Shown: positions 18,801 to 63,708 of the stretch, in pieces
Layout: every line of letters starts with the position of its first letter
Position numbering within the stretch: the stretch's first letter is position 1
DNA from: Acanthochromis polyacanthus
Taxonomy: Eukaryota; Chordata; Actinopteri; Pomacentridae
Direction of reading: 5' to 3'
Assembly (NCBI RefSeq): GCF_021347895.1
Contig: NC_067132.1
Location: 11,462,995-11,526,994, forward strand
DNA length: 64,000 nucleotides
Notes under the pieces: model-generated
Databases searched by the model: none
Seen by the model: the letters and a program-made list of their open reading frames with translations, nothing else
What the model was told of the DNA's origin: nothing
Translations under genes and position numbers: made by a program

Positions 18801-20782
18801 GTTTCAGAGAGGTCATAGCAGGCATATGAAAGCCCCCAACAGGAGTGTCCATTCTGGGTAATAGATCTCATGGTGTTTGTATCAGTCATAGACAGGCCTT
18901 TCTATTGGTCTAATAAATGTTGTTTTGTCCACTGACAAAATATTCACCACAGTAAAAAAAAATAAGAGTAAAGACACTGAGTAATAAACAGTGATTTGTT
19001 CAAACAACATTTAGAGATGTAGGACCATCAGGTGGCCGAAACACAGCAAAACCAACTGCAAAGCAAGCCTTAATACTAGATCAGATTTTTATGATGTTGG
19101 TTAACTGGAAAAAATGGAGTTAACATTGATAGTGGTTTGTTCACCACCTGATCAATGCCACTCCAAGTTTCACAGGTTTCTCATTCCTCTTGTAGGCAGA
19201 CAAACCTTGAAACATCCATCCATCCATCCATCCATCCATCCATCCATCCATCCATCCATCCATCCATCCATCCATCCATCCATCCATCCATCCATCCATC
19301 AGCTTTGCTTGTTTTTAGTTCTTGGAGGTCTTTAACCTCTTATCCAAATGCTTCCTCGGTTCTGACTGACTGGTTGGTGTTTATTTAAGGCTACCAGTGG
19401 TTCATTACTCCGCCAAATCCAACATGAATAAAGATTTGGTTAAACTGGATGTCTGAGCTGCAGTCTGTGTGTCTGATAGGTGGTGTCAGAGGCCAACCTC
19501 TCTGTTTATAGACGATCTTTTCAGTTCAACATAGAAAGGTTCTGTGATAGAATAAGTCCAAACATCCAGAACACTTAATGTAGCTTTAAATATAGTGTAG
19601 AATATGTTAAAGAGTTGTAACCAAAGAAAAACAGTGGTTCCACTGCATGAAAGTTTGAATTATGGTGCAGCTGTGGCCACACTCAACAAATGCCTCGATG
19701 ATTACACCCTGCCATGCACTTCTGATTCACTGCAACTGGGTGATGAGCACAAGATTCCAACTGGTGGGAAGTTTCAGGTTTTGTGTTTTTTCTGTTTCAT
19801 GTTTTCAGAATGAAACCAAGTCCATGAGGATGATGTACCAGAAAACTAAATTTCCTTTGACCTACATCCCTGAAATGAACTGCCAGGTAATTCATAATCA
19901 GTACAGTCCATCAGTCAGTATGTCTGGATAATGTGTGTGGGTTTAGTTTTTTCATGTATTCCATAAACTAGTTCATACACATGAACCAAACAGCTGCAAG
20001 GCCGGTTTGTGTATTTACTGTCATGTTTGAAATGTTTGACAGATCCTAGAGATGCCCTACAAAGGCAAGGAGCTCAGCATGCTCATCTTCCTCCCCAATG
20101 ACATGGAGGACAGTACTACAGGCCTGGAGAAGGTACAAACACAAACATTTGCACTTGGGCACAAAACAAAATCTACAAGATACACACAAAGGAATGACTG
20201 ATTATGTGTCCACCACCCAGCTGGAGAAGGAGCTGACCTATGAGAAGTTTGTGGAGTGGACCCGTCCAGACAGGATGTATGAAGTTGAGGTCCAGGTGGG
20301 TCTGCCTCGATTCAAGATGGAGGAGAAGTACGACATGAAGAAGGTCCTGGCCAGCATGGGCATGGTGGACGCCTTTGACATGAGAAAGAGTGACTTCTCT
20401 GGTATGACGTGTTCCTGGATCGTACAAGATACATTAAAGAGCAGGCAGCCAAAGCCTGAACTGGCTACTGAAGTTCTCCCAAATCAATGCTGTCTACACT
20501 CCCACCAGGTACTATATTTATGTGAAGTATCATCTGTCACTCTCTCCTTTAACAGGCATGTCTCCTGCCAATGACCTGGTGCTGTCTGAAGTCATCCATA
20601 AGGCTTTCGTGGAGGTCAACGAGGAGGGAACTGAGGCTGCTGCTGCCACCGCTGTTGTCGTGATGACGTTTGCTGCCGTGATTCCAGCCCCCTTCATCGC
20701 AGACCACCCCTTCCTCTTCTTCATCCGACACAACCCTTCCATGAGCATCCTCTTTGCTGGCCGATACTGCTCCCCTGAGTGA
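12834..20782 (+). CDS. serpinb1: Serpin gene A: clade-B serpin, SERPINB1/leukocyte elastase inhibitor-like, predicted P1 Phe
   Basis: Suicide inhibitor of serine proteases; clade B members act mainly in the cytoplasm and lack a signal peptide, as here. Coding exons: 12834-13010, 17559-17699, 17988-18105, 18474-18616, 19809-19886, 20043-20132, 20221-20401, 20556-20782. All have GT-AG borders and compatible phases, giving 384 residues. The acceptor at 12828 leaves AAACA before ATGG, a good Kozak context. Visible serpin signatures are NAIYFKGNW (~165), the hinge [11 protein letters not shown] (~332-342) and [16 protein letters not shown]. The reactive loop after the hinge is [13 protein letters not shown]; aligned to human SERPINB1, P1-P1' is Phe-Ala, which suggests chymotrypsin-like targets. 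Unlike most family members it ends in an extra Glu after CSP. An intron splits NCQ|ILEMPY. The CD-loop exon is broken (15984). No stops or frameshifts. Confidence 0.92.
13316..13959 (+). mobile_element. Solo LTR in intron 2 of gene A
   Basis: The 644-bp insertion begins TGTTATGATCC and ends ACCGTAACA, flanked by GATC (13312-13315, 13960-13963). Gene C has the uninterrupted site, reading CAAAGATCTGTTC at about 54829. TG...CA ends and a short duplication fit a solo long terminal repeat. The same LTR is at the same site in gene B (from 29605), so it is older than the A/B split. Internal poly-pyrimidine stretches give spurious short frames. Confidence 0.7.
15075..15761. mobile_element. hAT-type repeat in intron 2 of gene A
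   Basis: The element starts CAGGGGTCTCAAAC and ends GTGCACATCCCTG-like (GCACATCCCTG), with inverted CAGGG ends. It carries the GCGGCCCTCGGGCCAAAACC sequence widespread in fish genomes. Flanking 8-mers CTTTAGTG and CTCTAGTT are related; gene C has CTCTAGTG/CTCTAGTT, a clearer 8-bp duplication. The interior has TTTTGT-rich tracts. Gene C carries the same insertion (57308-57827) with an internal deletion, so it predates duplication. Confidence 0.7.
15984..16001 (+). pseudogene. Truncated CD-loop exon of gene A
   Basis: The acceptor ACCCCCAG and the first six codons (VLCFTK) match the start of the intact extra exon of gene C at 58050. After 16001 the sequence changes to an RTE retroposon tail. 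If spliced in, the frame would run through the retroposon to a stop near 16106. Its loss lets exon 2 join exon 3 directly, which stays in frame. Confidence 0.7.
16011..16140 (+). mobile_element. RTE-type retroposon 3' tail
   Basis: The sequence CTGCCACAGACTGGCGATCT, then GGGATAGGCTCCAGCACCCC and a GGATGGATG end, is a fragment I recognise as the common 3' tail of RTE-clade LINEs or derived SINEs in teleosts. It replaces the end of the CD-loop exon and about 0.95 kb of following intron that gene C retains. Confidence 0.65.
16234..16847. mobile_element. Solo LTR inside the MITE of gene A
   Basis: The insertion begins TGTCACGCAACGG and ends AACCATGACA, with a perfect 5-bp duplication CTACT (16229-16233 and 16848-16852). 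Genes B and C have the empty site reading CACTACTGTTC. A 5-bp duplication with TG...CA ends is standard for LTR retrotransposons. No internal domain or coding region is present. Confidence 0.85.
17088..17325 (+). mobile_element. Retroposon tail with (TTCTA)n end, gene A only
   Basis: The segment contains a C-run at 17101-17112, then a LINE-like 3' end (ATCTCATTGTACTTGTGTAT, GACAATAAAAGGC) and an ATTCTATTCTATTCTA tail. It is flanked by CTAGAATA copies, and the site is empty in genes B and C. It is too short to assign to a family with confidence. Confidence 0.6.
19214..19300. repeat. (CATC)n microsatellite in intron 5 of gene A
   Basis: About 22 CATC units. The same repeat in gene C (62115-62226) is longer, about 28 units. 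In gene B this part of intron 5 has been replaced by transposons. Confidence 0.95.
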
Positions 20783-23370: not shown

Positions 23371-23550
23371 CAGTGGATTGTTTCTTAAAACACTGATCAT
23401 TATTTTTAGGCAGATGCATCCTTTTCACATAAATGCCTACTCCATTCCCTTCAAATGTGTACATGTGTGACTGACAAAAAGGGTGGCCCATTTTAGCTGA
23501 AACCAGGGGGCCCAACTTACCTGAATAGGTTCAGCTAAATTGGGCCACTA

Positions 23551-24690: not shown

Positions 24691-24697
24691 TGCTCAC

Positions 24698-24914
24698 TCA
24701 GGGGGAGCAGAACCGGCCAGCAAAGAGGATGCTCATAGTGCTGTTATGTCTGATGAAGAACAGGAAGGGGTGATCTGCAGTGAAACGTGGATAAAGACAC
24801 TAAATTCACAGAGAAATGATTGAAGAAGCAGCTGCCTCAGTTCCTGCCTCATTCACCTCCACAAAAGCCTTGTGGGTGACTTTTGACAGCACCAACTCTT
24901 TGGTCTCAGACATT
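24698..24914 (-). pseudogene. Solitary inverted last exon of a fourth serpin, stops in the reactive loop
   Basis: Read on the minus strand it gives MSETKELVLSKVTHKAFVEV, then NEAGTEAAASSIISL, two in-frame stops (TGA, TAG) within the loop, and [20 protein letters not shown] ending FAGRFCSP and a stop. The loop segment is two codons shorter than in genes A-C. The acceptor is AAG instead of CAG. No exon 8 or earlier exon is visible at 24915-25345, so it is an isolated exon in opposite orientation to the array. It is more divergent from A-C than they are from each other, so it is an older relic. It cannot produce an inhibitor. Confidence 0.9.
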
Positions 24915-26026
24915 CTTGTCACAGAAAGAAAACAAAGACAAACATTTTAGGATCAAACAGTCACAACTGACTTGAAACAGTGAACCAGCAGATTTTCATC
25001 TTCCTGCTCTAGCTCTGGAATTAAAGACATTTACAATCCTCAAACTGGCATCAGTTTCCAGTTTTGATAAACAGACGTCCCACAGAGCATCACAACCTTC
25101 AAGGGGCATCATTATTGTCATTATAAAATCACACCTACACATGTGGACAAAATTGTTGCTACTCTTTGGTTAATGAACAAAAACCCCACAATGGTCACAG
25201 AAATAATTTGAATCTGAAAAAAGTAATAATAAACAAAAATTCTATGAAAATTAAGTAATGAAAATCAGACATTGCTTTTGGTTCAACAGAATTATTTTAA
25301 AAAATAAACTCATGAAACAGACCTGGATAGAAATGATGGTACCCTTAACTTAATATTTTATTGCACAACGTTTTGATGCAATCACTGAAATCAAACGATT
25401 TCTGTAACTGTTAATGAGACTTCTGCATCTCTCAGCAGGTATTTTGGTATCTTTATATACAGTCTATGCCTTGACTCTTTGTGCTTCGAGCCATGCTTTT
25501 ATTCTGAAGGTGTACACTGATAGTGAAATATTCTGAGTGCTGGGAAATTACTGGTTATCATTTGACGGTGTTTGTTTATGTAGTTCTGAATACCTGTTCC
25601 ATGAAGAAGCCTGGAATGAATTTCTTAACAATTTGTATTTGGACAAATTGTGTAATTATTGGGTAAAATAATAATGTAATCATCTGTAATGACCTTTCTC
25701 AAACAGCACAACCTGAAAGCTTGGAAAGAGGCAATACACACGGACAACTCTGGAGGCAGATATATGTTTATATTTATTTTATACAATAACATTAAATGAA
25801 AATAAAAGCCAATACAAAAACATATGAGGTTAGGTAATTAGCTTTATGACTCCTTGACATGCATAAATATTTATAACATTAAACAGATAAAACGTTCTAA
25901 AACAAATAGCCTCTGCAGACACTATTGGGCCGATGGACACAATCTGGACGTGATCTGAACGTCCAGCAGATGTCTGATGTTTAGTGGGATGTGTCTGTAA
26001 CACTACTTTGTGTAACTTCCACTGTG

Positions 26027-29122: not shown

Positions 29123-32100
29123 ATGGCATCTCCAAGCCCCCTAGCTCAGGCCAACACCAAATTCTCTCTGGCTTTGTTCAAGAACCTCGGCGATAATGAC
29201 AAGACAGCAAACCTCTTCTACTCCCCCTTCAGCATCTCTTCTGCCCTGGCTATGGTGATGCTGGGGGCGAGGGGCAACACAGAAGCGCAGATGTCAGAGG
29301 TACAGCGCACCTTCACCAACACAACAACTGTCTTTGGTCGAAGTAACAAATGAACATTGATAGCACTACAGGTGGGTGCACCTGGATCAGTCTGGTTTTG
29401 AGGCAGAGTGTGTCTTCTGAGTTTACCTTTACAATTACTCAACATCACTTGAAGACAAACAACACTTAACAGTAAAGCTCCATGATGGGAAGGCTTTGAA
29501 TTTGATATGAATGGAAGCTACAGAGGAGTTCTGAAGGTGTGAAGCCTCCATTCTGTATGAATCACCAGTTTTGTCTTCCGCTGTCAGCAAAAATGACAAA
29601 GATCTGTTATGATCCTGCTCCAGTTCTTGCCCTTCTTCCTCCTTTTTCCTTCTTTTCCCCATTTCTGCTCATCTGTGTGTGTCTTGACTTGTTTTTCTTT
29701 GGCTCCCTCTGTCTGTCATCTCTCCCTCCTGTCATTCTCCTAGTCACTCGGGGGCTGAATCCCAAACCGCCCCCGACACACTCCCCCTCCACTACCGAGT
29801 TTCACTCCAAAAGAAGTCACACTCACAGCTGTGGAGGGCACCTATTATTGAAGGGTGAGGGTATAAATACGATCGTCAGGAATGGGACGCCCTGTTGCCT
29901 CACCGGAAAACGGAAGACGTCATCGTCATGGTAACACAAAGACGCCTACTGTGCATGGCTGTAGCGCTGTGGCACAGGTTGCAACTAACAAGGATCGCTG
30001 CTGCTTCCAGAAGACGAAAGTATCCCACTTTTTTTCACTCACATTTTTTCCAATCCTATTATCTGGCATTTCAAATCCAACAAATGAATAAATGAATTCT
30101 GTCAGCTGTGTTCAAATTTTAAGGTGTCAGGGGGTGCACAATTTAATCAAACGTCAGCAGAGAAGAAGATTTGTTTCTTTTGATTTTTCTTTTTACACCA
30201 CTCTTTGTGATGTTCTGTCAGTGTGAAAAAGGCGTGGGAGAAATAAAGAACGCATGTGGAACTCACATCAATATGTTTGTTTCCTCCTCCATTTCGACGT
30301 TGCACTTCCTGAAAAAGTTGTCCAGAGTGAGCATCGATGCAGACTCGCTATTTAAGGGCTGAACAGTCCACTCTCCCTCCACACTACGCGGTTTGGGACG
30401 GCCCTTAATATGGAGGACCCTCCGCGGGAACGCGAAAAACGGAGGGGTAGTGTGTAGGGGGCGGTTTGGGATTCAGCCACCCTCTTGCATTGCTCGCTGA
30501 TTACCCAAATGACTATCAGCTGCAGTGATTGCTGAACTCACCTCACCTGTCGACAAACTCTCTATTTAAACCCCACTCACTCACTCAGTCACCGCCGGAT
30601 CATTGCCTAATTCACATGTTGCTACAGCTTCTGTCTCCCACAAGACTTGCTACTAGTGATGGTGAAATCGAAGCTTCATGAATCAATGAACCACTTTGAC
30701 ACATCTGCTTCAAGAATGACACATTGCTTCGAAGCATTTGACACAATCAGAAGAGTGACATCTGCTGGTCCTGTGTCAGAACTGCACCTAAGTGGAAAAA
30801 ATGAAAAAGCCTCAGGACTGCTTGTCTCACACCGCTTTGTACTTGCAATAAATGTTTTAAAACGTTATATATGTATGTTTGTGTTTATATATGTATAGTG
30901 TGTTTCTATGAATGAATGTGTGTTGTGTATGAGTGAATCTATGCCTATGTATCTGTGTGTTATTTAATGTATGAAATGCAACTAGATATATCTAAACTAA
31001 ATTCTAACTGAATGTATACTCTCCCTAACTTTTCTCAAATTGACAAATGGCAAATGCACTAGCGTGATCTCCTTCTCTCAAAAACCCACAGTTTGAGGAG
31101 TGAATCAGACCCCTATGCCTTTTAAGACCTGGACAGATTGAAATGTCCGACCCCTTTAAAGTTCGCGCGAAGCACCGCGACACGCGATGTGACGTAACGA
31201 GGCCGCGTTCTCGATAGTCACGTGATTGTGGGCGTGCTGAAGCAGGGATCGAAACACCGTCTCGGAACACTTTGGCTTCAAAAGCTCGGCACTGTGTCGA
31301 GCAAACTGGCTCGAGCGTAACATCACTACTTACTACCTCTGGATTGCTTCTGTAGATGGACTTGTCTGCTTTCCCCCCTTTGTTGATTTTGGATGGATGT
31401 TGACACAACATGTGAACAGCTCTACTCTGATGCTGGTTGTCCACCATCATACATAGCATGAAGCACCAATGACAGTTACAATTCCACTACTGTTCAACAG
31501 TTTGGGGTCACCCAGACAATTTACTGTTTTCCATGAAAACTGTCACTTTTATTCATGTGCTAACATAATTGCACAAGGGTTTTCTAATCATCAATGAGCC
31601 TTTCAACACCATTAGCTAACAATGTAGCATTAGAACACAGGAGTGATGGTTGCTGGAAATGTTCCTCTGTACCCCTATGGAGATATTCCATTAAAAATCA
31701 GCTGTTAGAATAGTCATTTACTACATTAACAATGTCTACACTGTATTTCTGATTAGTTTAATGTTATCTTCACTGTAAAAAACTGCTTTTCTTTCAATAA
31801 TAAGGACATTTCTAAGTGTTCCCAAACCTTTGAACAGTAGTGTATAAAAAAACAAGTCTCATCACTAAGTAGGTAAGATGACCATCATTCCAGTGTAATA
31901 TATTGTAATATGCATGTTTGTAACAGGTGTCTACTTTGTCCACAGTGTCTGAAAACTGAGGCTTGTAAGGCTGAAGTCCACTCTGACTTTGGTCAGCTGC
32001 TGAGTGAGCTGAACAAATCAGATGCTCCGTACGCCCTCAGTGTTGCCAACAGACTCTATGGAGAGCAGTCCTACCAGTTTGTTCAGGTGTGTGTCTTCTC

Positions 32101-33363
32101 TTTTCCAGCATATGTTTGTGGGTGTTCACAAACAGGGTTTGGTTATGCTTATGTTTCATTGAGCTAGCATGACTAAGAAAAGCAGAGAGGAATGTTGAAG
32201 CGGTTTAAGAAGCAATGATAGATATGGGAGTGGACCCCAGGCCAAAATACAAGCAAAAAGTAAATTAATGACTGTAAAATACTGTTTTATCCACAAGAGC
32301 TTTTAATTCTAGTAAGATGAATCATGGGATTCACTTATAAATTACAAATGTATTGTTTGGTTCGATGGATTTCAGGAGTTCTTGGGAAAAACCAGGAAGC
32401 ACTACAACGCTGAGCTGGAATCTGTGGACTTCATGAAAAAGTCTGAAGCAGCCAGACTCAAAATCAACAGCTGGGTGGAGGAACAAACACAAGGTGGATC
32501 TACACACACATTTACTGTGTGTAAACTGACCTGCAAACCTCCTTCTGTCCGTCTGTCTGTCAGTCCTGTGTTGGTTTAAGTGCAGAAAGAGCTATATTTG
32601 CAGATATTTTAATACAAACTTACATGGATGTAAATGGCCTGACTGAGCCATGAGGGACATGAAGAGGACCTGTGTTGCTTTGGGTTTGAATGGTGGAGTG
32701 ATGATTTGATCAAATTCTATTGAACAAAGGCAGAAACATTTCATTTTGGTGTGTTATGTGATAAATAGAGCTGGAAAATGTTAGTGACAAACTTAAAGTA
32801 TACTATTTTATATTTTACCAAATGTGACATTGCTTCACATGCATCAATTCTGTTCACCAGGTAAAATTAAGGATGTGCTGGCCCAGGGTGTGGTGGACGA
32901 CATGACCAGGTTGGTGCTGGTCAATGCCATCTACTTCAAGGGCAAGTGGAACAAGCAGTTTAAGGAGAGCTCCACACGTGACGCTGAATTTAAAGTCAAC
33001 AAGGTAAAACTGCAGCAGAATGATGATGTGATTACATTTTTTCAAGTCAAGCTTCAGTTCTGTCTTCACTGTGTAACAGATTTAAAACATGAGATGCAAC
33101 ATCACCACATGAGATACTATCAACAGAATGATTTTGCAAACTGCATTGAAATTGATGCATGTTTCAGGCCTTCTCTTCCATGAAGTACAGCTGTTTCAGA
33201 GAGGTCATAGCAGGCATATGAAAGCCCCCAACAGGAGTGTCCAGTACATCTTCAAACCACAGCTCAGCGAAGGCAAAAGACAACTCAAGACGAGTGTTTA
33301 GAACATTATGTTTATTTCTGAGGTCTGAGTAAAGGTTGACTTCTCTGATGGATTTCTAATTTA

Positions 33364-33417
<54 letters not shown>

Positions 33418-39362: not shown

Positions 39363-39397
<35 letters not shown>

Positions 39398-40352
39398 GGG
39401 GGGGGGTTGGAGATGGGGCGGGGGGAGGGGACTGTTTTTAACATGTATAGCACTTTGTGCTGCATTTTAATGTATGAAAAAGTGCTCTATAAATAAAGTT
39501 TGATTTGATTTGATTAGAGTTTGCCAAAAAACACATGAAGGACTCCCAGACTATGAGAAATAAGATTCTCTGGTCTGATGAGACCAAGATTGAACTTTTT
39601 GGTGTTAATTCTAAGCGGTATGTGTGGAGAAAACCAGGCACTGCTCATCACCTGCCCAATACAATCCCTACAGTGAAACATGGTGGTGGGAGCATCATGT
39701 TGTGGGGGTGTTTTTCAGCTGCAGGGACAGGACGACTGGTTGCAACTGAAGGAAGGATGAATGTGGCCAAGTACAGAGATATCCTGGAGGAAAACCTCTT
39801 CCAGAGTGCTCAGGACTTCAGACTGGGTTGAAGGTTCACCTTTCAACAGGACAATGACCCTAAGCACACAGCTAAAATAACAAAGGAGTGGCTTCAGAAC
39901 AACACTGTGACCGTTCTTGACTGGCCCAGCCAGAGCCCTGACCTAAACCCAATTGAGCATCTCTGGAGAAACCTCAAAATGTCTGTCCACCAACGTTCAC
40001 CATCCAACCTGACAGAACTGGAGGATCTGCAAGGAAGAATGGCAGAGGATCCCCAAATCCAGGTGTGAAAAACTTGTTGTGTCATTCCCAAGAAGACTCA
40101 TGGCTGTACTAGCTGAAAAGGGTGCTTCTACTCAATACTGAGCACAGGGTCTGAATACTTATGACCATGTGATATTTCAGTTTTTCTTTTTTAATAAATT
40201 TGCAAAAATTCTACATTTCTGTTTTTTTCTGTCAAGATGGGGTGCTGAGTGTACATTGAGAAATAAAATGAACTTCTTTGATTTTGGCAAATGGCTGCAA
40301 TGACACAGAGTGAAAAATTTCAAGGGGTCTGAATACTTTCCGTACCCACTGT

Positions 40353-40396
<44 letters not shown>

Positions 40397-50700: not shown

Positions 50701-53700
50701 TCTTCCCATTTGTGAGTTGGTAGGTGAATAGAGTCTGTCTTTGAAAGTAAACTATACATTTTTGAGAGGTTCTTTTTGTTTCTTGGAGACAGTTTCATAA
50801 TGTATTTAACAACTTCAGGTGGTTGTAAATCAGTTGGCTGTGAAGTAGACTGAAGCGATGGAATTCTACTTGTAAGCATCTTCTTTACCTGTAGGTAGTG
50901 GAGGAAGTTTCCATTTCTTATTTCAAATGTTTGGAATAAGTTTGTATATGTCCTAAATATGTTATCATCAAAAAGGTGATGGAGGTGGGTGACTCCTCTC
51001 TCTGCCCATGTCCTGAAATAAAGAGCTATTTTATTGTTTGCAAAATTAGGGTGGTGCCAGATTGGGGACAGTATGCTGGGTTTTAATTGGGAGCCTGTGA
51101 CCTCCAACGTTTTCCACCAAGCAGACAAAGTGGAGGCGATCATTGGTTTCTTGAAGTAGGAGTGATGTTTAAGGGCAGAAGTGATAAAGGGCAGGTCTGA
51201 GATTTTGATCTGGTTACAATCTAACTGTTGTAGTTCCAGCCAGGAGTTATATTCTTCATGTGGGTGAATCCATTTGGTGATATACTGTAGTTGGTTGGCT
51301 AAATAATAATACATGAAGTTGGGGGCTCCCAATCCCCCTTCGGGTTTATTCCTCTGGAGGGTGGCCAGACTGATTTTAGCCTTTTTGTTCTTTGAATAGA
51401 ATTTACCAATGGCAGAGTCTAACGATTGAAACCACTTTGATGTGGGTTTAAATGGAATCATGGAAAAGAGGTAGTTGATTTTAGATAATATTTTCATTTT
51501 GACTATAGCTATTCATCCCAAAAGGGAGATGCAGAGGTTTTTCCATCGCCTTAGATCTTCACAGACTTTGTCCAAAAGTGGGGTGTAGTTCAGGTGAACT
51601 AGCTCTGAGAGTTTGGAGGAAATATTTATGCCCAGATATCTGATATTGACAGTAGGAATAGAGTAATGCGAGTTTTGGACTGTTGGATTCCATGAGTTTT
51701 CTGTTAAAGGTAATATGATTGATTTTGACCAGTTGATGGAGTAGTCTGAAAGACGTGAGAAGTTTGTAATGAGGTTAAGTACTTCCTTCACTGAGGTTTT
51801 TGGTTCTTGTAGGTAAAGTAAAATGTCATCTGCGTATAGGTTAAGCTGCAGTCAATTCCAGCCATTTTCAGTACAAAAAATCGCTAATATTCTATTTGTA
51901 AATAAAAATATGACGAGAAATACAGGGAATATTGGACGCGCATCGCAAGGTGCATTTCCTTGAAAACGACCGATTCGTGGCGTATATACCGACTTCAGGA
52001 CATGTTTTGGACAAAATAGTTTACTGGCTTGTTTCGTCTGGATGTCCAAGGTTGGATTATGGCCGTTTTTTGTGGAATATTTTCATCTGTGTGTAATAAT
52101 GAACCCGGAAATGTGAGTCGCGCTGTGTACGTTGAAGCCGTGAATAGAGAACGGATGGATGGATATTCGTTTTTTGTCGGACAAATGTGTTTATATTACC
52201 CGCTGTGGTAATCGCATCGGAAAGTAGTTTATACCGGCGGATTCATGAGAATCTCAGCTTTCCATCGGCATATAGTGTTTGTATAATCGCATTTGCAGTT
52301 TCAGACATTTAGCAAATTGTTTATGCAGATCTCAAAGTGTACCGCGGGCGGGACACTGAAGCGCAACTGAAGCGCAACGGGTTAAAAGGTCTTCAGATAT
52401 TGTTGGTGGAGTGTCAGCCATTTGTGAAACCTGTTTGATCAGAGTGGATTATTGACGGGATAATTTTCTCCAACGTAGAGGCAAGAGCTTTTGAGACAAT
52501 TTTGATGTCAGTGTTGATTAGTGACAGAGGTCGATAGCTGGAGGGAAGTGTAGGATCTTTGTCTGGTTTCAATAATAATTTAATTGCAGCTGTATTCATA
52601 TGCAAACTTATATAACCATTATTTTTAATCTCTGTCACTGTCCTGAAGAAAAGAGGTGCTAACATTGACCAGAAATGTTTAAGAAATTCAGCAGGGAAGC
52701 CATCAGGATACTGTCTAATGCACACTGTAATTCTTTGATAGACAATGGAGCATCTCGTGTGTTTCTGTAATCTGACGTTAATTCGGGCAAGTTTAGATTG
52801 TCAAGAAAGATATGAATATCTTCTTCGTTTGGGTTAACTGTTGATGAGTATAAACTTCGGTAATAATTATAGAAAGTCTGATTAATTTCCTGGGGTGACT
52901 GAGTATATTTCCCTGAGGGATCCTGAATTGCTGTTATGAAGGATTTTTCTTTATTGCGCTGGAGTTGGTTCGCAAGAAATTTTCCTGATTTATTGTTGTG
53001 TTCAAAATCATTATATCTCAGCTGTTGTAGTAAGAACTCTGTTTTCTTTGATAAGATATTATCGAGTTTTAGTTTAACATTTTGTAGTTCTAACCACAAT
53101 TGATCACTTGGATTTATTGCATAGTTCTCTGTAAGTTCTTTAATTTTTTTCCTCAATTTCTTCCTGTAGTCGTTGATCCTTTTTTTCTTGTACGAGGAGT
53201 ACGATATTATTTTGCCTCTGATTACGGCTTTTCCAGTTTCCCAAAGTAAAGATGGAGATACATCATTAGAGTCATTGTTTATTAGAAAGTCTGCCCACTC
53301 ACGTCTTATTATTCGATCAAATTCCTGGTCTTCGAGTAGAGAGATGTTTAGGTGCCAAGTCTGAGGAGGTTTAGGGATGGAATCTGTTTGCAGGTTGAGA
53401 GATATTGGTGCATGGTTGCTGATAATGATTGGGTGAATTTTAGTAGTAGCTTTGTGTGCGATAGAGTTATTTGAGAGGATAAAGTCAATTCTTGCAAATG
53501 TTTGGTGCGCCTGAGAGAAAAAAGTATAGTCCCTCTTTGTTGGGTTTTTGAGTCTCCAGACATCTTCTAGTCCAAAATCTTTCATATAATCCTGTATGAC
53601 TTTAGCTGATTGTGGTTGTTTTGCATGTATTGGACTATGAGATCAAACTAGTGACGGGTTTAATACTATGTTGAAGTCGCCACCGATAATGGTTGTTGAG

Positions 53701-56700
53701 TTAGCAGATAAGTCTGCTAAGTGGATCATCATTATTCAGGGCGTACATATTTGCAATTGAATATAATTTATTAAAGATTGATGCCTGGATAATAATATAT
53801 CTGCCCTCTGAGTCTGTTACTGTGCTATTTAAAGTGAATGGTACTCTCTTATGGATTAGAATAGAGACCCCTCTTTGTCTACTGTTATAACAAGATGAAA
53901 AGATGATATTATAATTCGAGTCTAATAGAGATTTTTCTTCTGATTCTACTAAATGCGTTTCTTGGAGGAGCAAAATATCTGCTTTTAATTTGGAGACATA
54001 ATCCATAATTTTAACTCTTTGTTCGTGAGCGTATGCCATGAACATTCCAGGCTACAATATTTAACTTGAGCATAAAGAGAGAAGTTCAGTCATTGAATAA
54101 GTAGCAATATAGAATATCGTCTGTGTGTGTCCTTGTGAGCTGTTTGTTGCTGTCTGTGAGCTGTGGGTGTTGAAAAGAGATGTACATAGCAAGTCAAGAT
54201 CTATATATGCATTAAATAATAGCACAACATTGCCTGAAAAAATGACAACAAACACGTTATAAAACATACAAGCACAATAAAGAGAGACAGAAGGTAGGAG
54301 TAGGAGGAGGAGGGGGTTCTTCAGTGGGGAGTGCAGATAGGGAGAGTGACACATTTACATTCGTGTGATTTTGATTTTTTTTTATTATGTTTTCTAAACT
54401 AAATTAACAAGTGGTATACTAAGTGTTTAAGTCTTAATTATTATTATTATTGGAAGAGCCAGAGGGTCATGGAAGATTCCCGAAATATGTGTTGCGGGGG
54501 GCAACACAGAAGCGCAGATGTCAGAGGTACAGCGCACCTTCACCTACACAACAACTGTCTTTGGTAGAAGTAACAGATAAACATTGATAGCACTACAGGT
54601 GGGTGCACCTGGATCAGTCTGGTTTTGAGGCAGAGTGTGTCTTCTGAGTTTACCTTTAAAATTACTCAACATCACTTGAAGACAAACAACGCTTAACAGT
54701 AAAGCTCCATGATGGGAAGGCTTTGAATTTGATATGAATGGAAGCTATAGAGGAGTTCTGAGGGTGTGAAGCCTCCATTCTGTATGAATCACCAGTTTTG
54801 TCTTCCGCTGTCAGCAAAAATGACAAAGATCTGTTCTTTTTAGAGTCCTGCAAAGATTTGTGAAGGCCAGTTATGTGTTGTGTTACTATAGGAACATGAT
54901 GCAAAACATGGAGGTTTAAGGGCAATAAAGATTTATGTACATTGAAGTAATCAGTACATGTTATCTGTTAGCATTATGTGCAGCAGACATGTCAACTTGT
55001 CTGTCTGGCTGGGCTTTGTTGGTGAGTCCTTGTCAAAGTTGAGTCATTCCTTTGAAATATGGGTCACCTTTAGAGCATAAGGGCAACTATTGCACCACAG
55101 ACATGCAGGGCAGTTATCTGGAATGTAGGTGTAACTAGACATTGTGCAAAAGAAGAATGTTTCCTGACGTTTAGAGCACAGCCACACCCACATAAGTCAA
55201 ACAGGTAGGACAGTAAAGGCTTCATTTGTAATCTATGCTGGGGTAAAGAAACAACTCCAGTCATTAGAAATGATAATATTGACAGCATTTACAACATAAA
55301 GTTTAAAACAGTTTCTTCCAGAGCATCGTGACAGTCAATAGTGATAAAATGCTAGTAGGGAGTACATTGAAATAACAGGTATTAATTTGAGGTTTTCCCT
55401 ATTTGTGCTTTTATGCCTTCTTTTCAACAGGATCAGGAACAGTTCACTGTTTAAAGTAAGGAGGCAAACTATTATCAGTTAGTTTTATTTTGCACACACA
55501 GCTTGCAGTTGTTCCAAATAGGATGTCACTACTATCTAATGGGATAAGACGTTATGCCTGCAGCTGTACTAAGAGCCAAAGCAGGGCGGGTAAACAGACA
55601 GAAAAAGTGACAGTATCTGTGTCAATGGGAGTGGTAAGGAAAGTTTTAAAGATGAGTGTGAGGTGAGTCAGTTTCCATGTCGGGTGTTGTCAGCAACAAG
55701 ACAAAATCCAACTAAATGATGCAGTTCAGGTTGAGTCAGGAGCTGTGAAGAAGTGTGGCCATGCATGACTTTGTGATTGTGAAAGAGGTGAAAGTGATTG
55801 CTGTGAGAATTTACTTTTTCAGCTGCAACTTGCTGGAAAGTCTGCAGAGGTGGACAGAGTAGCCAAAAAATCGTACTCAAGTAAGCGTAATGTTACTTCA
55901 GAATAATATTGCTCAAGTAGAAGTAAAAAGTAGCCATTCTTATTATTTGGAAATACCAGAATTTGCACATTATTTTAAATTTTTGTCTGTCTGATCACAT
56001 CATTTCTAAAGATATAAATCAGACATTACAGTCAAACAGTTACTCAGTACTTTCAGTACTTGAGTAGTCTTTCCACCAAATACTTTTTACTCTTACTTGA
56101 GTAATTTTTTGAATGACTACTTTTTACTTCTACTTGAGCAATATTATTCTGAAGTAACATTACTCTTACTTGAGTACGATTTTTTTGGCTACTCTGTCCA
56201 CCTCTGAATGTCTGACTGTGAAGTGATTTCTTCTAACTTGATGTTTAGCCGGCTGGACAACAGTTGTTCTGCAGATACTGGAATCTGTTCATGGGAATAA
56301 GAAATGTGTGGATCACCAATGACATCACTCAGATTAGCAGAGCTTGTTAGAACAATCTGATGGTTCAGTTTAGTTTAGAAATGTGCACACGCTGAGCTGC
56401 AACACACATCATTTCTCAGTGTCTTGATGGCTGACTCAAAGCCAACATGAAATTATTATTCTTACAACAAATGAAAGACAAATGCATTTTTTTGCTGTCA
56501 AAATTAGGAATTTGATCCAGGTTAAAGACTATTTCTTTTCACTTTTAGCTCTCTGCCAGCTGTTGCAAGTAAGTTTTAAAGATCGACTTACCAGCAGTTG
56601 TAAAAGGTGTTACCCAGGAGCTCCACAGGTTGAAGTTCATACATTGTAACTGACAAATGTACTCAGAGTGTTGTGAGTACAACCTGACAACATTGTTGGG

Positions 56701-59700
56701 TGTGATTATCTTCAGCTCCTCTTCTTGGAAAAGTACAAAAAGTTGTGGTTGAATATGGCAGTGCAATTGCTCAGAATAATTTCTGACATGCATGTAGGGA
56801 AGCTGAGTACATTTACAGGTGATTAGTGTATATTTGAAGGTGATATTTGGATTATTATAATATTTAACTCCAATCATCATCTCTCTGTTTCTTTGTGCTC
56901 AAGCTGAGACTGTCCCACAGCTGTATAGAAGTGTAAAAGTTGTAGATTAAACTTTTCTCTGTGTATCAAAGTTCCATATTTCATTTCTTTTGTTGCTTTA
57001 AAATAATCCCTACTTTTCTACAATAAAAGCTTGGCTGCAGCTCAAGCACACCTATTCACCTACGACTCTGCAAAATTACTTTGGCATGTTGTAATTTTGG
57101 AGCCATTTAGTTATACATGTTTCAACCATGAACTGCTTCTGAAAGAGAATAATGACAGAAAGCTCCACCCTGCAGGACCAGTTCTTTACCTTCGTTCTGT
57201 CATATTAAACCTTAGAAGTCTGAATGTGTGTTTTTGAAAGTGTAGTTGTTGGAAATTCTCCACCCTGATGCTGACTGCTTGTATCACTAATGATATATCC
57301 TCTAGTGCAGGGGTCTCAAACATGCGGCCCTCGGGCCAAAACCGGCCCTCCAGAGGGTCCAATCCGGCCTGTGGGATGATTTTGTAAAGTACAAAAATTA
57401 CAGACAAGACATTAACTGCAGATTATACTTTTGTAAAACTGTAAATTTCAAATAATTTCTAGACCTTGACAAATAGTTTTTTATCACAAAGTAAAATACT
57501 GGATTGTTCATTGTTCTTTTGTGTCTCATTTTTGTGATACATCGTTTTGTTTTTGTTTGTTTTTTTTGTCTTTTCTTTTCTGACTTCCTGTTTTAATCAT
57601 AAAATAGTATATCATTCAGTTCCAGATATCTGTGACTAAATGTTGTGTTCCTTTGCAGACACTCTGTGATCTGTTAGTTGTAATGTGTAAATGATAAACT
57701 GAGTCATAATGTTGCTGAAATTAAATTTGTTTTTCTGAAGAAATTCCAGATTGTTCGTAATGTTTTGTAAAAAGATCATTCTTTAATACCTTGAACATTT
57801 TCAGAACATACTTTTTGCACATCCCTGCTCTAGTTTATTAAAACTCCATGTGAACATGTTAGTGAAGTTGAAAAGTTGATTTTCACTGCAGGGGGTCTTG
57901 AATTAAACAATAAATATGAGGGGGGTTGTACTGTAATGTAATGCCTGTGGAACTCAGCCCACATATCAGGATGGATGGAAACTTATTGCACACAACTACA
58001 GACAAATGACATCCAACCTAACAGTCAGCACTACCACCTGGACCCCCAGGTTCTCTGTTTTACCAAACCAAAGGAACCACAGCAGGCAGAACCACCAATG
58101 CAGATGCAGATGCAGCAGCAGCAGTGTAACCCGTTCACTCTACCACCTGGCCTGCTGAAGATTAAAGAGTCAACAGTAAAGGAATCATTCACTAACAGGA
58201 GGACATGTTACTAACACTTGGTATGGGTGGTGCCATGTGGAGAAGGGATTCTTGGAGACAGAGAAAATGTGGTTCCAGAGAGAGAGAGAGACTTGTTTTT
58301 CTGGCTTCTGTTTGCCTTTCTTATCTCCTATATGCTGCTGTCTTCACCTGTCTGATGGGAAAAGCAGTTTCAGGGAGCAGCCCTCGGTTACTGAAGGTTT
58401 AGTGTGTGTGTCCAACAGCTCCAAGCTCATAATGTTACACAACACACAGGAACCGTCTTATCCCTTTATGACCTCCCTGTGTGTGGCTTTAATATCTCTT
58501 AATAGCAGCTGCTAGAAATGATCCTTTGTCCTCAAGTTTTGATAACACATTGTCACACAGATTTCCTGTCATATGCATACTTTAAACATGGTTATTTCTG
58601 ATAGCGCTCTTGTATGTGGATAATACCAAATTTAGCAAACTTTGTTCTAAATGTTGACAGAAGATAATTAGTTAATGTCGTGCTGATTTGGATGCACACT
58701 ATAAAAAACATCTTTTCTTAATAGAAGGATAACCACACAATAACAACATGGTGGAGGGATGGCATGTGTCTACTTCAGACCTCAGTCTTGGGTTCTCTAA
58801 AGTCACAGTTAAAGGCATTCTCTTTACTCCAATGTCTGTTGTTTTTCCCTGCTTTCCAGTCAGTGTTGGGATTTTGTGCATTACTGCTGTACATGGTTCA
58901 TGTGGGATTTAACTGCTGCATTAATGTAAAGAAATGCACCAACACATAAAAAATGTGTCACTTTAGCCTCTAAGTGATGAGAAAATCTAAGTTATCAGTT
59001 TCTTACCTTTTAGGTCTTTATAGAGCAGTTCTGTGATGTTCTAAAATGTGTGCTGGTGCTCACATTTTAGATACCAGACTGTTTCTTTTTACAGATTTGT
59101 TTCTGGTACATTTTAGGTGAACAGCTAAACCATCATATGTAGCATGAAGCACCAAAGACAGTTATAAATACACTACTGTTCAACAGTTTGGGGTCACCCA
59201 GACAATTTTCTGTTTTCCATGAAAACTCTCACTTTTATCCATGTGCTAACATAACTGCACAAGGGTTTTCTAATCAACAATGAGCCTTTCAACACCATTA
59301 GCTAACACAATGTAGCATTAGAACACAGGAGTGATGGTTGCTGGAAATGTTCCTCTGTACCCCTATGGAGATATTCCATTAGAAATCAGCCGTTTCCACC
59401 TAGAATAGGCATTTACTACATTAACAATGTCTAGACTGTATTTCTGACTAATTTAATGTTATCTTCACTGTAAAAAAAATGCTTTTCTTTCAATAATAAG
59501 GACATTTCTAAGTGTTCCCAAACCTTTGAACAGTAGTGTATAAAAACAAGTCTCATCACTTAGTAGGTAAAATGACCATCATTCCAGTGTAATATATTGT
59601 AATATGCATGTTTGTAACAGGTGTCTACTTTGTCCACAGTGTCTGAAAACTGAGGCTTGTAAGGCTGAAGTCCACTCTGACTTTGGTCAGCTGCTGAGTG

Positions 59701-62700
59701 AGCTGAACAAATCAGACGCTCCGTACACCCTCAGTGTTGCCAACAGACTCTATGGAGAGCAGTCCTACCAGTTTGTTCAGGTGTGTGTCTTCTTTTTTCC
59801 AGCATATGTTCTGGGTATTCACAAACAGGGTTTGGTTATGCTTATGTTTCATTCAGCTAGCATGACTAAGAAAAGCAGAGAGGAATGTTGAAGAGGTTTA
59901 AGAAGCAATGATGGATATGGGAGTGGGCCCCAGGCCAAAATACAAGGAAAAAGTAAATTAATGACTGTAAAATACTGTTTTATCCACAAGAGCTTTTAAT
60001 TCTAGTAAGATGAATCATGGGGTTCACTTATAACTTACAAATGTGTTGTTTGGTTCGATGGATTCCAGGAGTTCTTGGGAAAAACCAGGAAGCACTACAA
60101 CGCTGAGCTGGAATCTGTGGACTTCATGAAAAAGTCTGAAGCAGCCAGACTCAACATCAACAGCTGGGTGGAGGAACAAACACAAGGTGGATCAACACAC
60201 ACATTTACTGTGTGTAAACTGACCTGCAAACCTCCTTCTGTCCGTCTGTCTGTCAGTCCTGTGTTGGTTTAAGTGCAGAAAGAGCTATATTTGCAGATAT
60301 TTTAATACAAACTTACATGGATGTAAATGGCCTGACTGAGCCATGAGGGACATGAAGAGGACCTGTGTTGCTTTGGGTTTGAATGGCGGAGTGATGATTT
60401 GATCAAATTCTATTGAACAAAGGCAGAAACATTTCATTTTGGTGTGTTATGTGATAAATAGAGCTGGAAAATGTTAACAAAGTGACAAACTTAAAGTATA
60501 CTATTTATATTTGACCAAATGTGACATTGCTTCACATGCATCAATTCTTTTCACCAGGTAAAATTAAGGATGTGCTGGCCCAGGGTGTGGTGGACGACAT
60601 GACCAGGTTGGTGCTGGTCAATGCCATCTACTTCAAGGGCAACTGGAACAAGCAGTTTAAGGAGAGCTCTACACGTGACGCTCCATTTAGAGTCAACAAG
60701 GTAAAACTGCAGCAGAATGATGATGTGATTATACAGGGTGTCCCAAAAAAATGTATACACACTTTAAATAATTGTAAGCTCGGTGTTTATTATAATTCGT
60801 TTCATTTTCAACATGTAAAAGAATCTACGAACATCATTCTGTTGTTTTGTCACCGCCTGTTCTCAAACTGATGTCCGTTCTGGTCCAGACACTGCCAACA
60901 ACGCGAAGCGATGGAATAGCACACATCATGAAACAATTCCCTTGGTATTTGCGTTCAAGAAAAAGTCAAAAAAGTCATCTTGAAATAAACAATAGGGAAA
61001 AGATCTGTGGGATGATGAAGAAACTGGAAGCAGGTGAGATCAGGGGTGATCATGTCTTTCCGTAAAAGTCTCCCTTTTTTGTCCTCGAACTGTGGCCGCA
61101 AAACAACAAAAAACAAACAAACAAAAAAAAAAACAACTGACATTCAGTCACTGAATTGAGAGCAACCATTGAAAGTGAATGCATGCAAATACCAAGGGAA
61201 TTTTTTTTGGAACACCCTCTATTTTGTAAAGTCAAGCTTCAGTTCTGTCTTCACTGTGTAACAGATTTAAAACATGAGATGCAACATCATGAGATACTAT
61301 CAACAGAATGATTTTGCAAACTGCATTGAAATTGATGCATTTTTCAGCCCTTCTCTTCCATGAAGTACAGCTGTTTCAAAGAGGTCATAGCAGGCATATG
61401 AAAGCCCCCAACAGGAGTGTCCAGTACATCTTCAAACCACAGCTCAGCGAAGGCAAGAGACAACTCAAGACGACTTTTAAGAACATTATGTTTGTTTCTG
61501 AGTTCTGAATAAAGGTTGAATTCTCTGATGGATTTCTAATTTAATCAGAGAAGTAATATCATTACTACACCTTCTTCATTAAAATTGTTAGAAGAAATGT
61601 GAATAAAAGGAATTCAACATCAGTGTCTGACAGAAATCCTCACTGTGGTGAAAGTCTGATGATGTAGACTGCATATTAGAAAAGGATAGGAGGATGTATT
61701 TCTCAGGTTTTTTGAAACATGAGTTGCAGAAAACAAGAAATTGTAAAACTTTCATTCTGGGTAACAGATCTCATGGTCTTTGTATCAGTCAGAGACAGGC
61801 CTTTCTATTGGTCTAATAAATGTTGTTTTATCCACTGACAAAATATTCACCACAGTAAAAAAAAGAAGAGTAAAGACACTGAGTAATAAACAGTGATTTG
61901 TTAAAACAACATTTAAAGAGGTAGAACCATCAGGTGGCCGAAACACAGCAGAACCAACTGCAAAGCAAGCCTTAATACTAGATCAGATTTTTATGATGTT
62001 GGTTAACTGGAAAAAATGGAGTTAACATTGATAGTGGTTTGTTCACCACCTGATCTATGCCACTCCAAGTTTCACAGGTTTCTCATTCCTCTTGTAGGCA
62101 GACAAACCTTGAAACATCCATCCATCCATCCATCCATCCATCCATCCATCCATCCATCCATCCATCCATCCATCCATCCATCCATCCATCCATCCATCCA
62201 TCCATCCATCCATCCATCCATCCATCAGCTTTGCTTGTTTTTAGTTCTTGGAGGTGTTTAACCTCTTATCCAAATGCTTCCTCGGTTCTGACTGACTGGT
62301 TGGTGTTTATTTAAGGCCACCAGTGGGTCATTACTCCTCCAAATCCAACATGAATAAAGATTTGGTTAAACTGGATGTCTGAGCTGCAGTCTGTGTGTCT
62401 GATAGGTGGTGTCAGAGGCCAACCTCTCTGTTTATAGACGATCTTTTCAGTTCAACATAGAAAGGTTCTGTGATAGAATAAGTCCAAACATCCAGAACAC
62501 TTAATGTAGCTTTAAATATAATGTATAATATGTTAAAGAGTTGTAACCAAAGAAAAACAGTGGTTCCACTGCATGAAAGTTTGAATTATGGTGCAGCTGT
62601 GGCCACACTCAACAAATGCCTCAATGATTACACCCTGCCATGCACTTCTGATTCACTGCAACTGGGTGATGAGCACAAGATTCCAACTGGTGGGAAGTTT

Positions 62701-63708
62701 CAGGTTTTGTGGTTTTTCTGTTTCATGTTTTCAGAATGAAACCAAGTCCGTGAAGATGATGTACCAGAAAACTAAATTTCCTTTGACCTACATCCCTGAA
62801 GTGAACTGCCAGGTAATTCATAATCAATACAGTCCATCAGTCAGTATGTCTGGATAATGTGTGTGGGTTTAGTCTTTGCATGTATTCCATAAACTAGTTC
62901 ATACACATGAACCAAACAGCTGCAAGGCCGGTTTGTGTATGTACTGTCATGTTTGAAATGTTTGACAGATCCTAGAGATGCCCTACAAAGGCAAGGAGCT
63001 CAGCATGCTCATCTTCCTCCCCAATGACATGGAGGACAGTACAACAGGCCTGGAGAAGGTACAAACACAAACATTTGTACTTGGGCACAAAACAAAATCT
63101 ACAAGATACACACAAAGGAATGATTGATTTTGTGTCCACCACCCAGCTGGAGAAGGAGCTGATCTATGAGAAGTTTGTGGAGTGGACTCGTCCAGACATG
63201 ATGGATGAAATTGAGGTCCAGGTGGGTCTGCCTCGATTCAAGATGGAGGAGAAGTACGACATGAAGAAGGTCCTGGCCAGCATGGGCATGGTGGACGCCT
63301 TTGACATGGGAAAGAGTGACTTCTCTGGTATGACGTGTTCCTGGATCGTACAAGATACATTAAAGAGCAGGCAGCCAAAGCCTGAACTGGCTACTGAAGT
63401 TCTCCCAAATCAATGCTGTCTACACTCCCACCAGGTACCATATTTATGTGAAGTATCATCTGTCACTCTCTCCTTTAACAGGCATGTCTCCTGCCAATGA
63501 CCTGGTGCTGTCTGAAGTCATCCATAAGGCTTTCGTGGAGGTCAACGAGGAGGGAACTGAGGCTGCTGCTGCCACTGCTGCTATAATGATGCTGCGTTGC
63601 GCCATGATTCCAGCCACCTTCATCGCAGACCACCCCTTCCTCTTCTTCATCCGACACAACCCTTCCATGAGCATCCTCTTTGCTGGCCGATACTGCTCCC
63701 CTGAGTGA
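47761..63708 (+). CDS. serpinb1: Serpin gene C: clade-B serpin, SERPINB1-like with CD-loop exon, predicted P1 Arg
   Basis: Coding exons: 47761-47937, 58050-58175 (CD loop), 59640-59780, 60069-60186, 60558-60700, 62735-62812, 62969-63058, 63147-63327, 63482-63708; 426 residues with the CD-loop exon, 384 without, in frame either way. The CD-loop exon starts [10 protein letters not shown] and contains [11 protein letters not shown], as in other fish SERPINB1-like proteins I recall. Hinge [11 protein letters not shown] precedes loop [13 protein letters not shown] and [14 protein letters not shown]. Aligned to human SERPINB1, P1-P1' is Arg-Cys, which predicts trypsin-like targets. Clade-B features: no signal peptide, NAIYFKGNW present. 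Intron 2 holds a 6.2-kb L1 block and a duplicated piece of exon 2. Frames and splice sites are intact, but splicing across the 10-kb first part of intron 2 and the CD-loop donor ACA|GTAAAG is unproven. Confidence 0.9.
48360..50040. other. GC-rich, proline-codon-rich tract, probable L1 3' region
   Basis: About 1.6 kb of C-rich sequence on the + strand in an otherwise AT-rich window. It gives long overlapping frames in several phases on both strands (for example 48933-50021 + and 49305-49784 -) that are Pro/Gly/Arg-rich without domains. A purine tract (GGAGGGGGAGGGAAGCGGAG) at about 49721-49745 could form triplex or quadruplex structures. It continues directly from the L1 C-terminal region, so I read it as the element's 3' UTR, not as a gene. 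Confidence 0.55.
50604..54045 (-). pseudogene. L1 ORF2, reverse transcriptase core deleted
   Basis: Endonuclease: [31 protein letters not shown]. Endonuclease end: [24 protein letters not shown]. Reverse transcriptase: [33 protein letters not shown], then QTGFTNG followed by a stop where GR.. is expected. About 120 residues carrying motifs A and B are missing and replaced by unrelated [17 protein letters not shown] follows at 51840. Further stops and frameshifts (near 51500, 53640) occur. Non-functional. Confidence 0.82.
51841..52385. mobile_element. TTAA-flanked segment replacing part of L1 reverse transcriptase, possible piggyBac-type element
   Basis: The intruding 537 bp are bounded by TTAA at 51841-51844 and 52382-52385. 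Read from the right, the end is CCCGTTGCGCTTCAGTTGCG, with a CCC start as in piggyBac-type elements; the left end GCTGCAGTCAATTCC does not match it. A deletion of the L1 at the same place makes the interpretation uncertain. No coding region. Confidence 0.35.
54497..54526 (+). pseudogene. Duplicate 3' end of serpin exon 2 within intron 2 of gene C
   Basis: About 30 bp (GGGCAACACAGAAGCGCAGA, then TGTCAGAG) followed by the GT donor and at least 300 bp of intron matching the start of intron 2 in A and B. The proper exon 2 is at 47756-47937. This second copy has no acceptor and no 5' part, so it should be silent. It marks the join between two serpin-derived segments. Confidence 0.85.
55845..56206. 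mobile_element. Fold-back hAT-type MITE in intron 2 of gene C
   Basis: The two ends, CAGAGGTGGACAGAGTAGCC and GGCTACTCTGTCCACCTCTG, begin inverted repeats that extend for roughly 90-100 bp each with few mismatches. The 362-bp unit could form a long hairpin. Flanking 8-mers AAAGTCTG and AATGTCTG differ at one base. Non-coding. Confidence 0.82.
57308..57827. mobile_element. hAT-type repeat in intron 2 of gene C
   Basis: Ortholog of 15075-15761 in gene A, starting CAGGGGTCTCAAAC and ending GCACATCCCTG, with 8-mers CTCTAGTG and CTCTAGTT. The TTTTGT-rich middle is about 165 bp shorter than in A. Confidence 0.72.
58176..59130. other. Intron 2 segment retained only in gene C
   Basis: Sequence between the CD-loop exon and the shared MITE region. 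It has no counterpart in A, where an RTE tail replaces it, or in B, where it is deleted. Short frames here resemble no protein. No RNA gene recognised. Confidence 0.5.
59171..59538. mobile_element. Tc1/mariner-type MITE upstream of exon 3 of gene C
   Basis: Complete copy flanked by TA (59169-59170 and 59539-59540), starting CACTACTGTTCAACAG and ending CTTTGAACAGTAGTG. Uninterrupted reference for the copies in A and B. Confidence 0.8.
60734..61219 (-). mobile_element. IS630/Tc1/mariner-type insertion in intron 5 of gene C
   Basis: Flanked by TA (60732-60733, 61220-61221). Genes A and B have the uninterrupted site (gene A: GTGATTCTATTTTG at about 18640). The left end CAGGGTGTCCCAAAAAAATG and right end GGAACACCCTC are inverted. 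The minus strand near the left end still encodes ELFHDV and [20 protein letters not shown] transposase tail. The interior has been rearranged: CCCTTGGTATTTGC (60940) recurs inverted as GCAAATACCAAGGGA (61186-61200), making a fold-back. Confidence 0.85.
62115..62226. repeat. (CATC)n microsatellite in intron 5 of gene C
   Basis: About 28 CATC units, at the same site as in gene A but longer. Tandem-repeat frames reading IHPSIHPS are artefacts. Confidence 0.95.

Follow-up and report, generated by a model that had tools for sequence, protein, structure and literature searches.

Tandem serpins with hypervariable loops are classically known from the rodent Spi loci, and in Manduca serpin-1 a single scaffold is combined with interchangeable alternative baits. 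In the woodrat SERPINA1 and SERPINA3 clusters, the reactive-centre loop (RCL) of tandem duplicates is enriched for positively selected codons and inhibition has changed (PMC12646145). For the primate pair SERPINB3/SERPINB4, part of one source lists 7 of 17 positively selected sites as RCL differences under a neofunctionalisation model (PMC4136820). Passages on the zebrafish Serpinb1/Serpinb6 loci report some genes with RCLs matching no human serpin (PMC1308813), and passages on insect serpins describe alternative bait exons on one scaffold, by alternative splicing and gene duplication (PMC10513286). Here we describe a tandem serpin array of the spiny chromis, Acanthochromis polyacanthus, in which the loop differs strongly between otherwise near-identical genes. 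Its last three genes (A, B and C) lie in a 64,000-nucleotide stretch of contig NC_067132.1 (assembly GCF_021347895.1, positions 11,462,995 to 11,526,994, forward strand; hereafter the window).

The rodent SERPINA1/SERPINA3 genes belong to clade A and the term "gene conversion" does not occur in the main text that describes them (PMC12646145), whereas the fish array, in a teleost, belongs to clade B and has chimeric loops and a putative exosite patch that tends to change with the loop. SERPINB3/SERPINB4 are clade B duplicates like the fish genes, but there are two copies, not nine, and "gene conversion" is again absent from the main text (PMC4136820). The teleost Serpinb1/Serpinb6 loci are of the same clade; their genes are identified by RCL similarity, and the passages concerned contain no loop shuffling or rate analysis (PMC1308813). 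Insect bait-exon serpins and the fish array both put many baits on one scaffold, but the fish genes are complete tandem genes. Among the literature matches listed for teleosts, for selection on serpin RCLs and for this species, none describes the pattern reported below, the nearest being the teleost Serpinb study (PMC1308813). Hypervariable baits in tandem serpins are the known part of our results; half-loop shuffling and coupling to an exosite are the new parts.

A replaced bait cassette in a near-constant scaffold

Among solved structures, the best match to C was leukocyte elastase inhibitor, chain 4ga7 (E = 4.9e-138 over residues 6-383 of 384), and the last exons score above the PF00079 cut-off; the array genes are clade B (ov-) serpins of the leukocyte-elastase-inhibitor/Serpin B6-like type. 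When the last exon of C was searched against the genome at DNA level, 18 places were found, all of them scored: nine full-length at 91-100% identity (copies S0 to S8), two older ones at 76%, six relics of another older exon at 74% (called D), and one partial match on contig C4. The nine close copies form one tandem array of ~0.2 Mb on a single chromosome, from S0 at 11,320,847 (minus strand) through S1-S8 (plus strand) up to 11,526,702 of the same contig as the window, and A, B and C are its last three copies, S6, S7 and S8. For the array, 230 kb of sequence was read, window included: S2-S8 completely, S1 in exons 4-8 and S0 in exons 5-8. A broader serpin family search scored 111 of 190 candidates, and its counts are lower bounds. 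All seven fully read copies have a complete open reading frame (ORF) built from their own set of eight coding exons; exon 7 of S0 is one codon short. The database protein P0002 of A. polyacanthus is the best same-length match to C (92% identity), and its residues 146-384 are identical to S1.

A preliminary description of this DNA had compared A, B and C, and its counts for the loop were reproduced exactly: over codons 343-355 (39 bases), A and B differ at 20 bases, A and C at 13, and B and C at 14. As it had also stated, every one of the eight loop codons changed between A and C changes the amino acid, the rest of the last exon differs at very few sites (3, 1 and 2 of 189 bases for A-B, A-C and B-C), and the last intron, which separates coding exons 7 and 8, differs between A and C at 1/154. 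For A-B and B-C the last intron differs at 3/152 and 4/152. The remaining coding sequence (CDS) differs at 27, 16 and 23 of 1116 bases in the same order of pairs (Fisher, loop vs. other CDS, 7e-20, 4e-13 and 7e-13), and the observed value of the best 39-base window was reached in 0 of 10,000 permutations for each pair. In introns 2, 3, 5, 6 and 7 pooled, the differences are 23/1047 (2.2%), 14/1053 (1.3%) and 31/1050 (3.0%). The loops are therefore 23-, 25- and 12-fold more different than the introns (Fisher 2e-20 to 4e-11), above the neutral rate that the introns represent and far from the equal rates that would have spoken against the preliminary view. Its statement that the background is lower than the introns holds for the rest of the last exon but not for the whole CDS, where the body diverges by 2.4, 1.4 and 2.1%. 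It was incomplete in that there are nine close copies and a second variable patch in exon 5.

In the nine last exons, 29 of the 42 bases of codons 342-355 are variable, compared with 6/96 before and 0/90 after them; variable intron bases number 6/152 in the last intron, 13/156 in intron 5 and 13/88 in intron 6. When S2-S8 were divided into 42-base bins from -840 to ~+920, 29 variable sites fell in the loop bin and 0-9 in each of the others (two bins have fewer than five usable columns, and beyond ~920 downstream the flank of C aligns poorly). Neither length nor frame varies among the nine loops. The inhibitory hinge (Gly and Thr followed by small residues ahead of P8) is the same in 9/9 copies and invariant across 41 aligned homologues. 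Residues 342-356 read ADMVMLCSYRPPATF in S0, VATCVKCSYRPPATF in S2 and VATHVKFSYRHPATF in S3, and the copies other than C bear putative Cys- or Phe-P1 baits. We concluded that scaffold and hinge are conserved, the scaffold almost and the hinge wholly without change, and that the part replaced is a 42-base cassette spanning the scissile bond.

Arrays of near-identical genes are difficult to assemble, and the loops of different alleles or copies might have been mixed by misassembly or collapse; a 22-member database cluster is not independent of this assembly. The differences, however, are concentrated in a single functional segment, leave frame and hinge intact, and show class structure across nine copies. 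Random errors would be scattered through exons and introns alike, and we consider such an artefact very improbable.

The D relics, one in each unit S1-S6, downstream of the serpin and on the minus strand, bear on a further explanation, a local mutational hotspot in which loop DNA would be hypermutable or prone to compensating indels. The D loop (41 bases) is identical in 6/6 copies; since the D exons differ mutually at only 0-3/210 bases (their 5' and 3' flanks at up to 24 of ~284), this control has limited power and is supportive, not proof. The untranslated loop-like DNA of the array shows no diversification. BLAST offers for A and C a gapped alignment that saves mismatches by two one-base gaps offsetting each other, as a hotspot might predict, but the gapped form was not clearly better and the nine loops have one length and frame, so the loops were rejected as frame-shifted versions of one another. 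A comparison of 63 canonical-type proteins of other fishes, all with loops of one length, gave loop-to-body ratios of difference of 1.2-1.7 through most of the range of divergence, with 2.8 in the closest pairs and 0.8 in the farthest, which also argues against hypermutable loop DNA. With one identical loop in the dead last exon of six units, a hotspot is hard to credit. The D exon is also a marker of the duplication unit, and a relative may lie at 11167627 of the same contig (minus strand, 76% to C).

A second variable patch and the baits of other fishes

The second patch covers residues 205-213 in exon 5. Six of the 12 body-specific residues of B fall within 207-219 (reached in 1 of 20,000 permutations). 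In eight genus pairs that we picked, each consisting of a canonical and an off-type copy, change in the body peaks in the window ~204-213 (0/5000 permutations), and the six closer of these pairs gave the same result by themselves; position 205 or 207 is changed in 8/8 pairs. Of 223 proteins examined, 17 had a loop or patch that could not be read and were set aside. In the 136 distinct loop/patch combinations that the rest represent, both lysines, K205 and K207, are present in 104/107 canonical vs. 13/29 off-type proteins (Fisher 2e-10, kinship uncorrected). S3 and S4 are changed at 210-212 despite having both lysines. The fish motif MMYQKTKF aligns ungapped to MMYQEGKF at 251-258 of antithrombin, so residue 205 matches antithrombin Glu255. 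Passages on antithrombin describe Glu255 as a strand-3C exosite residue contacting factor Xa, and loop and exosite as jointly setting the rate (PMC12001179, PMC10216295); for the fish patch the alignment alone suggests a similar function. A structure model of P0002 has a strand at 196-202 followed by a low-confidence turn at 203-206; the model is modest (mean predicted local distance difference test score 72; 203-206 and 332-359 under 50) and was used only for the strand. The 205-213 patch tends to change together with the bait, and the protease interface has probably been retuned at two places.

Residues 210-219 of the Osmerus protein P0176 (QKSIHEANCK) resemble those of damselfish S1 (LKSIPEVNCK), both proteins having off-type loops; this likeness may be convergence or an old allele. 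A patch in exon 3 (residues 126-131 of S2-S8) also segregates, as MKKSE or ITDYE, with 0.393 nonsynonymous and 0.085 synonymous changes per site. ITDY (residues 126-129) accompanies VAT loops alone, in S4, S5 and P0002; VAT loops, however, are also combined with MKKS, in S2 and S3, and a strict tie of this patch to loop type was rejected.

Among the 120 best matches to C, which include several isoform rows of one species, 111 of the 118 readable loops are Arg-P1 of C's type (pattern-scored), which makes C the conserved bait type and the baits of A and B derived ones. In the canonical set, residues 347-349 are nearly invariant partly as a consequence of the scoring pattern. A body tree with the loop masked (59 rows: 56 of 185 proteins plus A, B and C; a quick tree with support from the Shimodaira-Hasegawa-like approximate likelihood ratio test only) grouped most multi-copy sets by species or genus although their loops differ: Symphorus (4), Centroberyx (3), Micropterus (2), Centropristis (2), Xyrichtys (2), Conger (2, support 88) and A. 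polyacanthus.

Four predicted proteins of seahorse and medaka (P0001, P0018, P0020 and P0051) have two serpin N-terminal segments in tandem, which suggests read-through splicing between neighbour copies or an annotation artefact. If such splicing were general, the array could act as one complex gene whose last exons serve as alternative bait exons, as in insect serpin-1, and the label "isoform X23" of an A. polyacanthus protein would fit this as well. The seven fully read copies, however, each own eight coding exons and an intact ORF, and predicted isoforms may be annotation artefacts; we regard the complex-gene explanation as unlikely.

Probable exchange between copies and probable selection on the loop

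In B, codons 342-347 (exon 8 bases 97-114) differ from S0 at 1/18 bases and the 3' half of the loop differs from S1/S4 at 0/24; relative to S1, exon 8 of B has 12 differences in bases 96-113 and one more at base 57, and its last 115 bases are identical. The bait of B thus reads as a chimera, an S0-like 5' half joined to an S1/S4 3' half. Over exon 8, all four combinations were found in 43/325 pairs of two-state sites. S5 and A differ at 4/396 intron bases and at 22/42 loop bases, and among the seven full copies only these two share 19L, 199M, 216M and 304R (S0 also has 216M). S5 and C differ at 19/42 bases of the loop, 0/489 just downstream and 9/398 upstream, a pattern that pure point mutation could hardly produce and whose sharp boundary block exchange accounts for. 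The B chimera, the four-combination pairs and the S5/A and S5/C incongruence indicate gene conversion or recombination among copies. The preliminary description had proposed both conversion from donor loops and homogenisation of the rest. Conversion is favoured by the B chimera and the S5/A incongruence and weakened by the breakpoint permutation given below; homogenisation is borne out by the 0/489 downstream of the S5 and C loops but not by the 3' flank of S1, an exception that diverges from the other copies after ~200 bases. Genome searches allowing <=3 mismatches with loop codons 342-350 found, for S4 (27 bases), five places, S1-S5 only, with no donor outside the array, and for A a single place, A itself. 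D was rejected as a loop donor, its loop being broken and unlike the others.

Minimum-step counts gave 35 nonsynonymous and 6 synonymous changes in the loop (1.12 vs. 0.56 per site) and 27 and 15 in the body without the two patches (0.033 vs. 0.069 per site); pairwise NG86 estimates are unreliable at such loop distances. Within S1-S5 the loop is variable at 9/42 sites vs. 20/396 in introns (p = 0.0007), with ~8.5 nonsynonymous to 0.5 synonymous steps. Selection on the loop is well supported by rate but only moderately by the ratio of nonsynonymous to synonymous changes. The diversifying selection put forward in the preliminary description thus gains from the 12-25-fold excess over introns and the mostly nonsynonymous S1-S5 changes, and the contrast of ratios between loop and body adds weak evidence. 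If spare copies had simply lost their role after duplication, their loops would drift, and the moderate constraint on the array body outside the patches, with loops that tolerate change, is compatible with this. But drift cannot pass the neutral rate, as the loops of A, B and C do, and the intact ORFs and the nine hinges speak against lost function. Relaxed constraint or pseudogenisation was therefore rejected as a full explanation, and we give it very little credence; its loophole would be introns that are homogenised while the loop is not.

Silent sites are also more variable in the loop than in the body (four-fold sites, 4/13 vs. 9/158, p = 0.01), so part of the loop excess reflects age or import and not selection. 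The loops might even be ancient lineages kept by selection, in the manner of the major histocompatibility complex, on young bodies homogenised by within-species conversion, with little recent rewriting. Besides the four-fold sites, this explanation is favoured by silent differences per pair (A vs. S0-S5 and B, 1-4 of 7-8; C-B 2/5; C-S0 1/5), by the derived residues shared by S2 (CSYRPPATF) and Symphorus (CCYRPPATF) while bodies cluster by species, by CSYT/LSYT loops in Centroberyx and Misgurnus, and by the identical S5-C flanks beside differing loops. On the other hand, silent differences are 0/6 for A-C and 0 of 4-5 for C vs. each of S1-S5, unexpected for great age; the S1-S5 loops are a few steps apart, nearly all of them amino-acid-changing; and the Tyr-350 loops come partly from a search aimed at the loop of B, so that their sharing may represent convergence plus ascertainment. 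We regard old loops on young bodies as possible but doubtful. Equally tentative is a repertoire reading, in which teleost clade B arrays would be antigen-receptor-like: old loop halves, split at the scissile bond, would be micro-converted over species-homogenised scaffolds, and bait and strand-3C patch would be retuned together, repeatedly and independently across many lineages, with one Arg-P1 copy held constant.

The explanation that we consider likely combines a near-constant scaffold and a replaced 42-base bait cassette with selection, exchange and homogenisation. Amino-acid-changing substitutions would generate new baits, short tracts exchanged between copies, each a whole loop or half of one, would shuffle them, and longer conversion or unequal crossing-over would homogenise the flanks; C, at the end of the array, retains the old Arg-P1 bait, and selection to recognise different proteases would drive the change. 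Several points weigh against this explanation. The one-breakpoint permutation for B gave p = 0.036 with parents S0/S4 and 0.12 with S0/S1, a pair that needs two breakpoints. The ratio of 35:6 in the loop differs from 27:15 in the body without patches at p = 0.04 and from 45:18 in the whole body at p = 0.15, and recombination violates the assumptions of such step counts. To these are added the variable silent loop sites and the limited power of the D control. A, S3, S4, S5 and the off-type Symphorus proteins P0034 and P0123 retain K205 and K207, and Lates P0121, on a long branch, falls outside the other Lates rows of the body tree. S0 and S1 were read in part, and all copies come from one assembly.

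Gene models, neighbouring features and meaning of the array

The coordinates are collected in Table 1. All seven introns of A, B and C are GT-AG; the ends of exons 3/4 and 7/8 were placed allowing for a G on both intron sides, a one-base ambiguity. Position 20556 is the first base of the last exon of A, and 63708 is the last base of the stop codon of C.

Table 1. Features of the serpin array (window positions; contig positions for the five further D relics)
Feature	Position	Strand	Remarks
Serpin A (S6)	12834..20782	+	Intact 384-aa ORF, 8 coding exons
A coding exons	12834-13010, 17559-17699, 17988-18105, 18474-18616, 19809-19886, 20043-20132, 20221-20401, 20556-20782	+	
A codons 205-213	19842..19868	+	KTKFPLTYI, identical to C
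Last intron of A	20402..20555	+	154 bp; compared with B and C in the text
Loop of A, codons 342-355	20651..20692	+	P1 Phe by alignment
D, solitary broken serpin last exon	24693..24919	-	Stops in loop; one of six relics
Five further D relics, same contig	11356999, 11383171, 11404363, 11427812, 11458523	-	
Serpin B (S7)	29123..43442	+	Intact 384-aa ORF, 8 coding exons
B coding exons	29123-29299, 31946-32086, 32376-32493, 32861-33003, 42470-42547, 42704-42793, 42883-43063, 43216-43442	+	
B codons 205-213	42503..42529	+	KTEFPFKSV
Loop of B, codons 342-355	43311..43352	+	P1 Cys by alignment; apparently chimeric
Serpin C (S8)	47761..63708	+	Intact 384-aa ORF, 8 coding exons; final close array copy
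C coding exons	47761-47937, 59640-59780, 60069-60186, 60558-60700, 62735-62812, 62969-63058, 63147-63327, 63482-63708	+	
C codons 205-213	62768..62794	+	KTKFPLTYI, canonical form
Loop of C, codons 342-355	63577..63618	+	P1 Arg by alignment; conserved teleost type

Human SERPINB1 has fewer than eight coding exons. Two introns that are short in all copies, intron 5 (156 bp) and intron 6 (88-89 bp), bring the number of coding exons to eight, possibly by intron gain in fishes; clade B serpin genes are described, in passages of one source, as having seven or eight exons with conserved phasing (PMC1308813). A motif scan found an alternative exon of the long isoform that looks intact at ~58050-58170 in intron 1 of C; intron 1 of A gave only a truncated start, at 15987, and B gave no match; among the three genes, C alone may make the long isoform. 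Intron 4 of B (9.5 kb) holds, within 33802-41599, a reverse transcriptase/endonuclease ORF at 34460-36934 and Tc1/Sleeping-Beauty-like transposase ORFs at 33802-34215, 37129-37641 and 40616-41599. Upstream of the serpins, a reverse transcriptase ORF with a zf-RVT domain lies at 713-2866 (minus strand).

The array is a clean natural case of a protein that evolves mainly by swapping one 14-residue segment, and its own dead exons provide a control that argues against a mutational hotspot. With it one could test how much of serpin specificity is due to the loop alone and how much to exosites changing with it. Since loops move between scaffolds, identifying fish serpins by their loop can mislabel orthologues. 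As judged from sequence, one protein frame probably serves the fish as a panel of suicide inhibitors with the same trap and different baits, whose candidate targets would be its own granule proteases, digestive proteases or those of pathogens.

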